Source: Candidatus Methanosuratincola sp. (GTDB taxonomy: Archaea > Thermoproteota > Methanomethylicia > Methanomethylicales > Methanomethylicaceae). Taken from it: a stretch of 64,000 nt of DNA. Of this stretch, positions 305-5,695 are shown one piece after another. Position 1 is the first letter of the stretch; every line of letters starts with the position of its first letter. The DNA is taken from positions 62,001-126,000 of the forward strand of contig JBBFLR010000003.1 in assembly GCA_037478935.1 (NCBI GenBank). The letters run 5' to 3'. The notes beneath the pieces were generated by a model. It did no database searches. It was not told where the DNA came from and saw nothing but the letters and a program-made list of their open reading frames with translations. The translations under genes and the position numbers were made by a program.

Positions 305-1024
305 ATGGCAGATATGCAGAAACAATCGATGGTAAGGCTCGGAACAGGCGAACTAGACCGGCTCATAGGGGGGATACCGATGCCCTCGATGAACCTCATA
401 GAAGGGGAGAATGACACTGGCAAGAGCGTCTTCGCTCAGGACGTCGCTTGGGGTGCCCTTATGTCCGGATTCACAGTCCGCTACATAACGACCGAGATGA
501 CGGTCGAGTCCCTCGTCTCCCAGATGGAGAGCCTCTCCTTCAACGCCTCCCCGTTCTTCATCAAGGGGATCTTCAAGATAACCGCCTTCCACGCGAAGGG
601 AATCAATTGGGACGAGAGCATAGCCTCGAATTACCTGACGGTGATGCTCAATTTCATAAAGAAGAAGGGGGACGCCAACGTCGTCATATTCGACTCGCTC
701 ACGTATATAGCAACACACTCATCGGAGAAGGATCTCCTCAACTTCCTCTCGGAACTCAGAAACTACGTGGATCAGAGGGGGAGGATAGTCTTCGTAACCA
801 TCCACCCGTTTGCCTTCGACTCCAACCTCCTGATCCGGATTCGGTCTATCTGCGACGGTCACATGGTCTTCAAGGTCAAGACCCTTCCCAGCAACGAGAC
901 TGCGAGGACCTTGGAGATCCTCAAGCTGAGGGGTGCAGCTAAGGCGACTAACAATCTTTGCACGTTCAAGGTGGAACCGGGGCTAGGCATAAGGGTTCTG
1001 CCGTTTACACAGGTGAAGGCATAA
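305..1024 (+). CDS. arlH: Archaellum motor ATPase-like protein FlaH/ArlH
   Basis: KaiC/RecA-like protein of 239 residues that binds ATP and regulates assembly of the archaellum motor with ArlI and ArlJ at the membrane. Walker A is GENDTGKS at residues 34-41 and Walker B is VVIFDSL near residue 125. The length matches the family. ATG 305 is chosen because GGAGGT lies about 10 bases upstream inside the end of arlG; the same frame extends back to 188 but that would overlap arlG by over 100 bases. The Walker A has Asn-Asp-Thr in place of the more common small residues, as is seen in other FlaH proteins. Role is by family; the motifs are visible. Confidence 0.92.
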   Translation: MADMQKQSMVRLGTGELDRLIGGIPMPSMNLIEGENDTGKSVFAQDVAWGALMSGFTVRYITTEMTVESLVSQMESLSFNASPFFIKGIFKITAFHAKGINWDESIASNYLTVMLNFIKKKGDANVVIFDSLTYIATHSSEKDLLNFLSELRNYVDQRGRIVFVTIHPFAFDSNLLIRIRSICDGHMVFKVKTLPSNETARTLEILKLRGAAKATNNLCTFKVEPGLGIRVLPFTQVKA

Positions 1025-1085: not shown

Positions 1086-2865
1086 GTGAAAAGAGCTGGC
1101 TAACGAGGTCTCAGGTGGAGGGGCAGCAGGCCTTAAGGCAGACAACGGTCTCAACTGCTCCCTCGCCGACCTCCTTGGCAACGAGTACGGGGAATATGCG
1201 GCGAAGGCACCCCACCTCCACGAGTACGCACACGCTGCCCATAAGGATCCCGCCTTGGCTGGTGTCCAGCTCCAGTTCAAACCCTCGCTCTCGAGGGACC
1301 TCCGCCTCCTCAAGAAGTTCAGCATCATATACCCTGCCTCGGATAACATATTTATCCATGTCTTCAAGGGTGTCAGGGACGCCTACGGCAAGTACCGCCC
1401 CATAGAGCCGCGGCTGCCACCTGACAAGAAGGATCTCATAGACAGGACAGAGGTATTGCTTGCTTCGATGATAAACGACAAGACTGCCCAGCAGATAGCC
1501 GAGAAGAGGGAGGCTATGCTTAAGGAACTCTTTGAGGAGGTCGTTAAGATTGAGGGGTCGCCGATCCCGTCCGGAAAGAAGGGCAGGACACCGTCCCCTA
1601 TGGTACTTAACAGGGATCTCTACGAGCGACTCAAGTACGAGATAATGACCGATAAGATCGGTATGGGGCCGATCGAACCCCTGATAAAGGACCCGTACAT
1701 AGAGGATATCTCCTGCGATGGTGTAGGGCCTGTTTTTGTCGAGCACAAGATATTCGGGCCGATGACCACGACAATAGAGTTCAAGACCGTCCAAGATCTC
1801 GACACATTCGTGGTCAAGGTCTGTGAGAAGATCGGCAGGCCTGTTAGCCCAAGGAGACCGATAGTTGACGCCTCTCTTCTGGACGGGTCGCGCCTCAACG
1901 TCGTCTTCGGGACCGACGTCAGCAGGCGGGGGAGCAACTTCACAATTAGAAAGTTCTCAAAGATACCTCTCAGCATCACCCAGCTGGTCAAATTTGGAAC
2001 ACTCGATGCCAGGATGGCTGCTTATCTGTGGATGATGCTGGAGTCGGGCATGTCCATGTTCATCTGCGGTGAGACTGCCTCTGGGAAGACGACGACCCTC
2101 AACGCCATCACAGTCTTCATAAGGCCAAACGCAAAGGTGATCACAATAGAGGACACCCCTGAGGTCTACATCCCACACCCTAACTGGGTCAGCGAGTGCA
2201 CGAGGAGGGGAGAATCTGAGTCCTCATCTGTTGAGCTATTCGACTTACTAAAGTCCGCTTTGAGGCAGAGGCCGAACTATATCATTGTCGGCGAGATCAG
2301 AGGTAGAGAGGGAAACATCGCCTTCCAGGCCATCCAGACCGGGCACCCGGTAATATCCACATTCCATGCAGCATCGATGCAGAAGCTTATCCAGAGGATC
2401 ACCGGCGACCCGATAAACATCCCAGCTGCCTATGTCGACAACCTGAATGTCGTGCTCTTCCAGAGCAGCGTGAAGAGCCCCAAAACTGGCAAGTTCGAGA
2501 GGAGGGTCACCGGTATCTGCGAGATTATCGGTATAGACCCTGTTGAAAAATCCTACAACTTCATCGAGATCTTCTCATGGGACCCGGTTACAGACACGCA
2601 TACGTTCAGGGGTGTAGGGAACAGTTATCTCCTCGAGTACAAGGTTGCACCTGCAAAGGGCCTCTCGCCTAAGGATGCGAGAAAGATATACAACGAGCTT
2701 GAATTGAGAACATACATAATAAAAAAACTGGTCGAGCTAAACATAATGGACTACTATGACGTCTACAACGCCCTCTCTAAGGTATACGACAACCCGTACA
2801 TTGCGGACATGAACTTTGACAACTTCGCCACCAAGGCGATTGACAAAATTCTAAAGGGTGAGTGA
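1086..2865 (+). CDS. arlI: Archaellum assembly/rotation ATPase FlaI/ArlI (start one base out of frame)
   Basis: Secretion-type ATPase of the VirB11/FlaI family that drives both assembly and rotation of the archaellum. Walker A GETASGKT starts at base 2068, the TIEDTPE Asp-box follows near 2147, and Walker B IIVGEIRGRE lies near 2281. The first ordinary in-frame start is TTG 1255, but the frame is open and protein-like back to 1090 (LADLLGNEYGEYA around 1165-1203), so TTG 1255 would delete real N-terminus. A GTG at 1086 with a purine-rich leader sits one base out of frame; removing one A from the AAAA run after it would give a clean start. CTG 1096, six or seven bases after GGGGTGA, is the other option. 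Confidence 0.9.
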
Positions 2866-2898: not shown

Positions 2899-4512
2899 AT
2901 GACGCAGGTACAGGCCGAGACGAAGGAGATCCCGCTATGGATGCCCCAGAAGAGCGTCGAGGAGCTCCAGAAGATAGAGGCAAAGAAGGCAAGGGAGCGT
3001 TTCCGCCTGTCCTTAAGGGATCAGCTCGAGTCGCTTTTGTTTGCCAGAACTAACAAGAAGATCTGGCACTCTATGCCCTTTTTCATAATGCACATCCTCG
3101 CTTGTTCTTATGCCGAGGTCTCCTCCATAGAGCTCGTTAGAGTCAGCAGCAGGACCAGATACGGAGCTATCACCAGGGTGATGAAGCGTATAGGCGCACT
3201 CGTTGACCTGGGAATAGAACTCCAAAGGGCGTGCGAGATATCGAGAAAGGATATGAAAACCCCTTACCTGAGGGACTTCCTCCAGCGCTTTTCGCAGATA
3301 GCCAAGATGGGAGAGGATATGATCACCTTCTTGACTAAGGAATACAATTCCTTTATGACCATGTATACCAGTGAGATGGAGAGGACGCTGACAAGACTCA
3401 AGAGATTCACGGAGGCCTACAGCGCAATACTGTCTTCCTCGGTGCTTATAGTCCTGATTCTGGTCTTTACGAGCGTGCTCTGGGGCGCAGGTGTGGAGGC
3501 CACTGGCTACGTCATGCCTGCGATCCTCGTTATTTACGCAATCTTCGCGTTTATCTTCTACGTCTCCTCGCCCTGTGCGAGGAGGATCTCTCCCCACTAT
3601 TTGGAAAAGGATCTGGCAAGCACAATCAGGTTAAGCAGGCTTGTCTTGAAGATCACAGTCGGGGTCAACCTCCTCCTGATCATGATGCTGACTTTACAGC
3701 TGATCCCATTGGCAGTCGGGTCCCTCGGTGCTGCTCTTTCTGGCCTCCCCGCTCTCCTCATAGGTTATATGGGCCTCAAGAGAACCAGGGGAATGTCATC
3801 TTTAGACGAACGGTTTCCTGAGTTCGTGACGATGCTCACGACCTCGCTTTCAACGACCGGAACTTCCCTTACCTATGCTTTCAGGGAGATCTCAAGGCTC
3901 GACTTCGGTTCGCTGAGCCGCTTCATAAAGAAGATGTACTCGAGACTCGAGATCGGTATAGAAAAGGCAATTGCATGGGACGCACTTAAGAAAGAAATCT
4001 CCAGCGATCTGATATCCATTCACTCCGAGGCGATAGCAGAGGCAAACAGGCTTGGGGCACCGGCGAAACTTTACGGTCCGCTTATCGCAAACTCATCCCT
4101 CTTTTCACTGACGCTCAGGAGACGAGTTGAGGAAACCGCGGCCCTTATGAAGGGAATCGTGGTTCCAATGCATCCGATCCTTTGTGCGATAATGGGATTA
4201 ATTATGGCCATCCTGACACAGTTCATAGCAATCTTCTCCCAGTTTGAGCAGCAGGGTCTCCCAGTCATATTTGCCACAGTGCCTTCGTTGGCATCTATAG
4301 AAGCGTACATATACATCGTCCTAGGAACACTCACTTTCGTCAACGCATTCGTACTGCACGAGATAGGTGGCGAGCAGGAGTTCGACCTCACCTTCTACCT
4401 CGGCCTGTTCATAACGACCGGATGGCTTACCTACTTCTTCTGCTTCACATCCGTCTCGGCGTATCTCGAGAGCATTGGCCTGGGGAGGATGATCAATATT
4501 ATAGGAGCATGA
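2899..4512 (+). CDS. arlJ: Archaellum membrane platform protein FlaJ/ArlJ
   Basis: Polytopic membrane protein of 537 residues that forms the platform on which ArlI and ArlH act and through which archaellins are inserted. It has an N-terminal soluble stretch, hydrophobic segments near residues 175-225 and 245-295, a large cytoplasmic loop containing FVTMLTTSLSTTGTSL (T2SF-like domain) and a C-terminal cluster of membrane helices near 415-535. Length is typical for archaellar FlaJ. It starts 33 bases after arlI with a GGGGGTAAG ribosome site. Position after arlI supports the call. Confidence 0.92.
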   Translation: MTQVQAETKEIPLWMPQKSVEELQKIEAKKARERFRLSLRDQLESLLFARTNKKIWHSMPFFIMHILACSYAEVSSIELVRVSSRTRYGAITRVMKRIGALVDLGIELQRACEISRKDMKTPYLRDFLQRFSQIAKMGEDMITFLTKEYNSFMTMYTSEMERTLTRLKRFTEAYSAILSSSVLIVLILVFTSVLWGAGVEATGYVMPAILVIYAIFAFIFYVSSPCARRISPHYLEKDLASTIRLSRLVLKITVGVNLLLIMMLTLQLIPLAVGSLGAALSGLPALLIGYMGLKRTRGMSSLDERFPEFVTMLTTSLSTTGTSLTYAFREISRLDFGSLSRFIKKMYSRLEIGIEKAIAWDALKKEISSDLISIHSEAIAEANRLGAPAKLYGPLIANSSLFSLTLRRRVEETAALMKGIVVPMHPILCAIMGLIMAILTQFIAIFSQFEQQGLPVIFATVPSLASIEAYIYIVLGTLTFVNAFVLHEIGGEQEFDLTFYLGLFITTGWLTYFFCFTSVSAYLESIGLGRMINIIGA

Positions 4513-4522
4513 GGTGGGTTAG

Positions 4523-5695
4523 ATGGAGTCAATATCTTCTATAATGATGCTCGCAGCGATCGCAGCTGCGGTACTAATGGCCGCCTCTATCTTTCTGATG
4601 GTTTTGATTGACTTGGTTAGGACGCTTAGGGCGAAAAGTATGCCCAAAAACCCGTCTGTTGTCCCCGTTCAGTCCCAACCGACATCTGTAGCGCAGGCAA
4701 CCACCGTTAATCCGACGGGAGAAAAGAGGCGGATCATATTCAGGCGCACCCTCTTTACCGTCTGGTTCAACAGGAGGGGGAGACCTTCAGGAACCATCAA
4801 AATTACCAGGGCAGAAGTCGACCCTTCCTCTGACGCAGCTGCTGCTCCATCTACAGGTGCTGTAATCGAGCCTCAGGCAGTCACAAATGTTGCTGCTGAT
4901 ACGGCTGCAGTTACTGCTGCGACCGACGCTGTCACATCTCCTGCATCTGCAGAGTCGCAGGATGCCGTCCCTCTTGCCAGCCCGCCGGATGCACCAGCAG
5001 ATGCGCCCTCTGCCCCGGATGCAGCAGGGTCATCTGAGAAAGAACCGCCGCTCGTGCCCCCTCAGGCACCCGTGCCGCCCAGTCCAGCAACCGAAGGCCC
5101 CCCTCCTACGCCTTCCGCACAGGTTACTTCTTCTTCAACCATGGGCCCCATGCCCAAGCAGACGCCAGCAACCACTCTTGGGGTGGGCGAAGGAAAGCCG
5201 GAGGACGGTCCCACAACAGGAGAGCAAAACGGCGAAGCCGAATCACAGGGAGAGGCAGAGGTCAAGGTCAAGGTGAAGCCCATAGCCAGCCTCTCTGAGG
5301 CGAGAAAGATAATTGAGGAGAAGGCCAAGCGTTCGACCAGCGCCCCTGCGCCTCCTCCGGACGTTTCGGCCACTGATGATGTGGCCTCGCTGCTCGGAAT
5401 ACCTGCAGACAGTAACGTAAAGGGAGTTGAGAGTAAGCCCAAACCCCAGCCCCAACCGACACCGAAAATCTCGGATAAAAGCGGTTCCGTTTCATCTCCA
5501 GATCTGGAAGAGTCCAAGGTGCAAAATGGAGATGAAATAACGGCACGCTTCTCACCAGACGACCCTGCTGCACTGCTCGAGAGGAGGGATGCTTCGACAG
5601 AAGCCATGGATATCTCAAAGCAGCTCATTGAATTAAAAGATTCATTGTTAAAACTAGAAAAGAAGCTGAAGAGCCTGAAGCACGAAGAGGTGTGA
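4523..5695 (+). CDS. Pro/Ala-rich membrane protein with C-terminal coiled coil, end of archaellum operon
   Basis: Protein of 390 residues that I do not recognise. Residues 5-35 are a single hydrophobic helix followed by basic residues, so the rest is probably cytoplasmic. Residues 100-330 are low-complexity, rich in Pro, Ala, Ser, Thr and acidic residues, with short KVKVK and PQPQP stretches. The last 30 residues (MDISKQLIELKDSLLKLEKK region) form a predicted coiled coil. It starts ten bases after arlJ with GAGGTGGG before ATG, so it is cotranscribed with the motor genes. One transmembrane helix plus a coiled coil is reminiscent of crenarchaeal FlaX, but no sequence similarity was identified. 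FlaC/D/E homology is not evident. Confidence 0.75.
   Translation: MESISSIMMLAAIAAAVLMAASIFLMVLIDLVRTLRAKSMPKNPSVVPVQSQPTSVAQATTVNPTGEKRRIIFRRTLFTVWFNRRGRPSGTIKITRAEVDPSSDAAAAPSTGAVIEPQAVTNVAADTAAVTAATDAVTSPASAESQDAVPLASPPDAPADAPSAPDAAGSSEKEPPLVPPQAPVPPSPATEGPPPTPSAQVTSSSTMGPMPKQTPATTLGVGEGKPEDGPTTGEQNGEAESQGEAEVKVKVKPIASLSEARKIIEEKAKRSTSAPAPPPDVSATDDVASLLGIPADSNVKGVESKPKPQPQPTPKISDKSGSVSSPDLEESKVQNGDEITARFSPDDPAALLERRDASTEAMDISKQLIELKDSLLKLEKKLKSLKHEEV

Follow-up and report, generated by a model that had tools for sequence, protein, structure and literature searches.

Among the accessory proteins of the archaellum motor, ArlX (FlaX) is described as membrane-tethered and ArlCDE (FlaC/D/E), the cytoplasmic ring/switch complex, as having no tether in two reviews (PMC12024892, PMC8978795), and ArlX and ArlCDE were related to each other with HHpred by Makarova and others (PMC4858521). 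ArlX has one N-terminal membrane helix, a Pro/Gln-rich linker and a coiled coil, is reported to form rings of about 30 nm that bind ArlI and ArlH, and is thought to act as a motor scaffold; its gene lies between arlB and arlG/F and is the only ring gene of its operon. CheF, the archaeal adaptor between CheY and ArlCDE, is given as the link of chemotaxis to the motor in one of these reviews (PMC8978795). Bacterial CheY binds the EIDALL motif of FliM and FliY, while CheF uses another face of CheY, according to a further paper (PMC9126983).

The open reading frame (ORF) directly after arlJ in the archaellum operon analysed here, which we call X, resembles ArlX in having one N-terminal membrane helix, a Pro-rich linker and a coiled coil, and resembles ArlCDE in being an accessory protein of the archaellum operon with a coiled coil. 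Unlike ArlX, it is encoded after arlJ and in operons that have a separate ring gene upstream of arlF, and unlike X, ArlCDE is without a membrane helix. With CheF it shares only a proposed role in linking CheY to the motor, and X has no match to the CheF family PF04283 (Pfam, E<=1).

The window, a stretch of 64,000 nucleotides from a Candidatus Methanosuratincola contig, contains X together with arlH, arlI and arlJ (see the table). Candidatus Methanosuratincola subterraneus was the closest named relative identified, which puts the host in the Methanomethylicia. The reading frame of X opens with an ATG at 4523 and closes with a stop codon at 5693-5695. It begins on the same strand 10 bp after the stop of arlJ (4512) and is preceded by GAGGTG, the last base of which lies six bases before the ATG. 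The first-pass annotation had given the coordinates, strand and length of this ORF exactly, and the short gap bears out its description of the gene as tightly linked after arlJ. X matched no family in Pfam and NCBIfam at E<=1 and no PDB sequence at E<=1. Beyond the window, in the upstream part of its contig (locus L029), Pfam or profile matches identified genes for CheA, CheY, CheX/CheC, CheB, CheD, CheW and a receptor, and an archaellin-type protein gene that was taken as arlF. CheR, arlB and an ArlCDE-type ring gene of this locus were named from gene order and likeness to neighbours; the ring gene had no Pfam match. Near the che genes, L029:6525-6854 encodes a 109-aa protein without a Pfam match, and similar ORFs were recognized by eye in L030 and L033.

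Coordinates of the archaellum genes, of the segments of X and of the compared genes. Positions without a locus prefix refer to the window.
Feature	Position	Strand	Remarks
X (post-arlJ gene)	4523-5695	+	ORF, 390 aa; putative motor tether in the membrane
X N-terminal transmembrane helix	4526..4639	+	residues 2-39; AlphaFold2; N-out, C-in by the positive-inside rule
X basic-hydrophobic juxtamembrane segment	4724..4789	+	residues 68-89; possibly membrane-lying; p=0.003 against shuffled linker
X motif A KVKPIASLSEARKIIEEKAK	5264..5323	+	residues 248-267; short helix within the disordered arm
X motif B TDDVASLLGI	5372..5401	+	residues 284-293
X C-terminal heptad helix	5591..5686	+	residues 357-388; AlphaFold2, heptad score; part aligned in the best between-family comparisons
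arlH (KaiC-like)	308..1024	+	start picked within ORF 188-1024; NCBIfam NF004723 above cut-off, 8.9e-75
arlI, motor ATPase	1255..2865	+	NCBIfam NF058587, 663.8 bits, above cut-off; real start possibly further upstream
arlJ, platform protein	2899..4512	+	top NCBIfam match NF004705, 6e-64, below its cut-off; operon position
ArlCDE-type ring gene of the window's operon	L029:16219-17280		named by likeness to a G023 gene in a profile search
Thaumarchaeal rings with EIDALL motifs in the linker	L134:11716-13095; L136 ring ORF; L129:4659-5996; other f12 loci		
Thaumarchaeal CheC-like proteins with the motif	L129:14899-15660; L124:10205-10936; ORFs in L128, L130, L131, L133		

The architecture of X was modelled with AlphaFold2 from three sequences, the window protein and two relatives of its genus. 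The N-terminal and the C-terminal helix had block pLDDT values of 76-91 and, from residue 361 on, of 78-91, respectively, while weaker helices were placed at residues 66-85 (block pLDDT 50-63), 257-271 and 283-290 and the confidence was low elsewhere (mean pLDDT 50.6). A second model, of the relative in L002, gave the same order of helices with one extra at 346-353, the mean of both models being about 51. By reading of the sequence, the hydrophobic residues 364, 368, 371, 375, 378, 382 and 385 form a regular heptad, giving a coiled coil of about 30 residues. C-terminal heptad scores were higher in 26 X-type proteins than in 1182 control C-termini (Mann-Whitney p=8.5e-16), in a comparison where the relatives are not independent and the controls were not cleared of X proteins. 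The model and the hydropathy agree with the single N-terminal helix of the first-pass annotation, and the heptad helix with its C-terminal coiled coil; the linker is as rich in Pro, Ala and Ser as it had said (14.7, 13.8 and 11.2% of residues 36-355), at a length of about 315 residues instead of 200.

Since Lys and Arg are more numerous after the membrane helix than before it in 23 of 23 single-helix X proteins, the bulk of X should be cytoplasmic; the N-terminal flanks of these 23 proteins contained no class III signal pattern. Among the ten members of family f1, to which the window's operon belongs, the basic-hydrophobic segment stood out from shuffled sequences at p<=0.033 in seven (the window's own, G020, G023, G021, G017, G016 and G027) and was not above shuffles in G028 (0.12), G011 (0.75) and G012 (0.97). 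Within the three genus members, 13 of the 20 columns of motif A and 9 of the 10 columns of motif B were invariant. The motif A segment of G016 also matched that of the window (p=0.016), and in pairwise comparisons of linkers only pairs of the genera g1 and g4 beat shuffles, by way of motif A. Whole-length identity of the window protein with its two own-genus relatives was 29 and 38%. For the seven pairs whose dS is below 2, dN/dS lay at 0.19-0.39, indicating that X is under selection; another two pairs (0.12 and 0.13) exceed a dS of 3, and for one pair no value was obtained. In a few X proteins the start codon was trimmed manually.

An ArlJ match at E<=1e-10 was obtained in 18 of the 40 genomes of the class, and X lay directly after arlJ in 10 of the 40. 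In f1, each of the ten operons that share the window's type and have a readable arlJ end had X in this place (the window's own, G023, G021, G017, G020, G016, G027, G028, G011 and G012; L002 and L003 apparently come from the same genomes as G023 and G021 and were counted once), so that the check proposed by the first-pass annotation, a search next to arlJ in relatives, gave a positive answer. When the class was searched for homologues of X, 6 of the 40 genomes gave a match, every one next to arlJ. The other, divergent Methanomethylicia arl operons had no X after arlJ (L038-L043, from G009, G006, G030, G026, G029 and G038); of these, the G038 operon clusters in the ArlI tree with operons of f11, possibly a sign of operon transfer.

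Across the phylum, we surveyed the ORF after arlJ at 112 loci with an automatic criterion (an ORF on the same strand, no more than 200 bp away, with one or more N-terminal membrane helices and with C-terminal heptads) that was fixed after a first look at the survey loci. Of these loci, 23 passed, 78 failed and 11 were unreadable, and the passing loci belonged to the families f1, f17, f22, f33 and f47. The window and G020 are two more positives, the latter coming from the class survey and being absent from the automatic survey and from both trees described below. A sixth family, f16, is a single copy (G046) cut by a contig end, which fails the automatic criterion and was counted as positive in the ArlI tree and in the ring count.

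In the ArlI tree, which has 109 rows and lacks four of the surveyed loci (G009, G229, G266 and G149), all 24 X-positive rows fell into one clade of 32 rows with a support of 98. Of the rows of this clade, 25 were readable, 24 of them positive and one negative (G303, f18), and seven were unreadable; outside it, X was found in none of 72 readable rows. The tree tool's own count of label changes was 8 since the seven unreadable rows entered as negatives. The ArlJ tree (98 rows after removal of seven long rows) needed two label changes, of which well-supported branches force only one. X was not found after arlJ in either f18 genome (G303 and G229), and G229, placed with f17 and f22 by the ArlJ tree, forms a second negative there. 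Both trees came from quick searches and retain long branches; they fit, without proving it, a single origin of X followed by one loss in f18.

Comparison of the family sets by hhalign aligned the C-terminal helices of f17 and f22 at 84%, of f1 and f17 at 26% and of f22 and f47 at 25%, whereas f1-f33 reached 9% and the remaining pairs did not exceed 1.4% (f1-f22 1.4%, f47-f33 1.1%, f1-f47 0.6%, f17-f47 0.5%, f17-f33 0.5% and f22-f33 0.2%). As these between-family matches span only 21-26 columns, gene position and the trees are the main grounds for regarding X as homologous across families. Taken together, the data support X as a dedicated archaellum component that is linked to the arl genes and restricted, in the survey, to one arl clade. 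In f47 and f16, the linker of the post-arlJ protein is preceded by six predicted membrane helices (L049:5315-6592, L052:5807-7030 and L065:1-1033); downstream of the X-type gene of L052 come a receptor-like gene (by eye), CheW and, again by eye, CheY-like genes.

A separate ring gene was found in 23 of the 24 X-positive loci. None of these 23 rings has an N-terminal membrane helix, as against 31 of the 68 rings identified at X-negative loci, where the helix occurred in all nine ArlX of Sulfolobales (f27), all 16 thaumarchaeal rings (f12), all four f44 rings and one of two f48 rings. X and a membrane-anchored ring were never found together in one locus. Because the rings of X-positive operons are without an N-terminal membrane helix, we propose that X is a single-pass component of one archaellum branch that tethers the helix-less ring in trans, a reading to which we give about an even chance. 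The membrane helix of X would sit beside ArlJ, and the C-terminal coiled coil would bind a cytoplasmic part of the motor, most plausibly the ArlCDE-type ring or ArlH, thereby anchoring in trans a ring that has no membrane helix of its own. ArlX and most thaumarchaeal rings have the anchor helix in the ring protein itself, whereas here it would be a separate polypeptide. We infer both the binding of the ring or ArlH and tethering as the job of X. Across complete members the linker measures between about 90 and about 380 residues, a spread that fits a tether but not a rigid strut. The first-pass annotation had suggested a motor scaffold or a switch adaptor; the scaffold was the better half of this suggestion, with data that agree better with a flexible tether and its putative contacts than with a rigid scaffold. 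A ring likewise without a membrane helix was present at 37 X-negative loci, meaning that a ring of this kind can do without X, and a strict rule by which X supplies the helix missing from the ring was rejected in favour of a relation that holds one way only. Euryarchaeal ArlCDE functions without any known tether. X marks a whole arl clade and thereby offers a defined candidate for how a cytoplasmic ring is held; no report of a post-arlJ tether was found in a literature search whose scope mostly excluded subscription papers.

We consider it rather unlikely, at about one chance for every four against, that X is instead an assembly, placement or polar-cap factor that recruits or positions the motor. 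The long disordered arm, the several short motifs and the basic, possibly membrane-lying segment would suit a recruiting hub, and the che-arl region includes a gene for a ParA/MinD-like ATPase, but that gene lies at the che end and not next to X.

Marginally less probable still is a specific form of the second suggestion of the first-pass annotation, by which X would be a switch adaptor in chemotactic Methanomethylicia, with CheY-P docking on arm motifs (TDDVxxLLG, SEVExLLK) that resemble the EIDALL motif of FliM, in replacement of CheF. Within the class, X does track chemotaxis: the che operon adjoins the arl operon, X was present in 7 of 7 CheW-positive genomes, and CheW was found in none of the 30 genomes without a found X, while the X-positive genomes without CheW (G020, G016 and G028) are 77, 59 and 92% complete. 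Outside the class this association did not persist, as all 12 f17 and f22 genomes with a readable X had no CheW match, and the view of X as a chemotaxis-only protein was rejected on this ground; in one f22 genome, G184, CheW is present and the arlJ end is unreadable. Similarly, CheF (PF04283) was unmatched in all 40 class genomes while three control genomes were matched, but it was also below the cut-off in 80 of 80 archaellated genomes of the phylum (with one sub-cut-off match, G260, at 21.6 bits), and its absence was therefore rejected as a special clue. The CheW and CheF status across the phylum refers to 80 of the 96 chosen genomes, from which 16 near relatives, ten of them thaumarchaeal (f12), were omitted.

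The motif B pattern [DEN][DE]Vx[AGSTL]LL, picked after viewing the proteins, occurred in 9 of the 10 f1 X proteins and in 7 of 7 from CheW-positive class genomes, and the match to EIDALL beat shuffles in the CheW-positive G011, G012 and G027 (genera g3 and g6; p 0.012-0.016). In some relatives the order of acidic and hydrophobic residues in motif B is close to that of EIDALL (TDDVEALLKG, SEVESLLK). The window's TDDVASLLGI, on the other hand, was no more similar to EIDALL than its shuffles (p=0.42) and lies inside the linker, unlike the N-terminal motif of FliM/FliY; G023, G021, G017, G020, G016 and G028 were not above shuffles either. Outside f1, only G154 exceeded them (p=0.002), and because this f22 genome is CheW-negative, EIDALL-like matches are not tied to chemotaxis. 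Starting from the window protein, a motif search corrected for choice was not significant (55 of 200 shuffles were as good), and the f47 X proteins of two CheW-positive genomes have no motif. A motif model built from thaumarchaeal rings ranked the G011 motif eleventh outside its training proteins among 513,684 positions but scored the best stretch of the window protein below zero. CheF-less thaumarchaea do have plain EIDALL motifs in the ring linker and in CheC-like proteins. A broader scenario, which we regard as slightly more doubtful than the adaptor role by itself, would join these observations: in one clade of archaella the crenarchaeal design would have been split, with a ring that lost or never gained its helix anchored by a separate post-arlJ tether, and in chemotactic Methanomethylicia the tether arm would have gained repeated FliM-type CheY-docking motifs that replace CheF, in parallel to the CheF-less thaumarchaea with EIDALL in a membrane-anchored ring and CheC.

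It is improbable that X is a highly diverged ArlX, hence a cytoplasmic ring-former, or the detached N-terminal part of one, relocated behind arlJ. The first-pass annotation had named FlaX as the closest protein in plan, and the order of helix, linker and coiled coil agrees with this, as does the mutual exclusion of X and membrane-anchored rings noted above; profile homology did not. An iterated profile search merged ArlX with the ArlCDE ring proteins, and the f1 X proteins were not among the matches to the ring profiles. By hhalign, the best alignment of the f1 X set with f1 rings covered 11 columns at 0.1%, that of the 10-member f1 X set with nine Sulfolobales ArlX covered 6 columns at 8%, and the f17 X set reached 5% against the same ArlX. 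The f22 X set gave 80.5% against Sulfolobales ArlX over 10 columns only, which was taken as a chance match between coiled coils. Also against this reading stand the presence, in 23 of 24 X-positive loci, of a separate ring protein that profiles join to ArlX, and the coiled coil of X with its length of only about 30 residues. With no convincing homology of the f1 set to ArlX or ArlCDE and with its place beside arlJ in relatives, X agrees with the first-pass view of a new component distinct from FlaX and FlaC/D/E. The least credible reading makes X a bystander that evolves fast, sits in the membrane and merely shares the operon; the low overall identity and the absence from f18 speak for it, but it is disfavoured because, within the ArlI clade, the linkage is conserved in 24 of the 25 readable rows, with the dN/dS range of the seven unsaturated pairs and the conserved ends and motifs of X pointing the same way.

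In the thaumarchaeal f12 loci, the stretch from the membrane helices to the coiled coil holds between one and four EIDALL-type motifs in 13 of 16 rings, and none of the f12 genomes tested had a CheF match. Judged from the sequences, these motifs are a possible CheF-independent docking site for CheY. The f12 che operons encode 11 CheC-like proteins found by pattern, all of which have the motif or a close variant at or near the C-terminus (six with the strict motif and five with variants judged by eye; the CheC assignment is Pfam-based for one), as expected if the motif is for CheY docking. EIDALL-type motifs were absent from the rings of CheW-positive f44, f48, f47 and f10 genomes. A literature search, with subscription papers mostly outside its scope, found no report of the motifs in thaumarchaeal rings or CheC. 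CheF-less genomes with motif-bearing linkers make a chemotaxis-to-motor route outside Euryarchaeota directly testable. Finally, crenarchaeal arl operons with a helix-less ring encode, near arlB, small proteins in which two hydrophobic segments were seen by eye (L050:14275-14544 and L085:4933-5175); these could be another kind of anchor.
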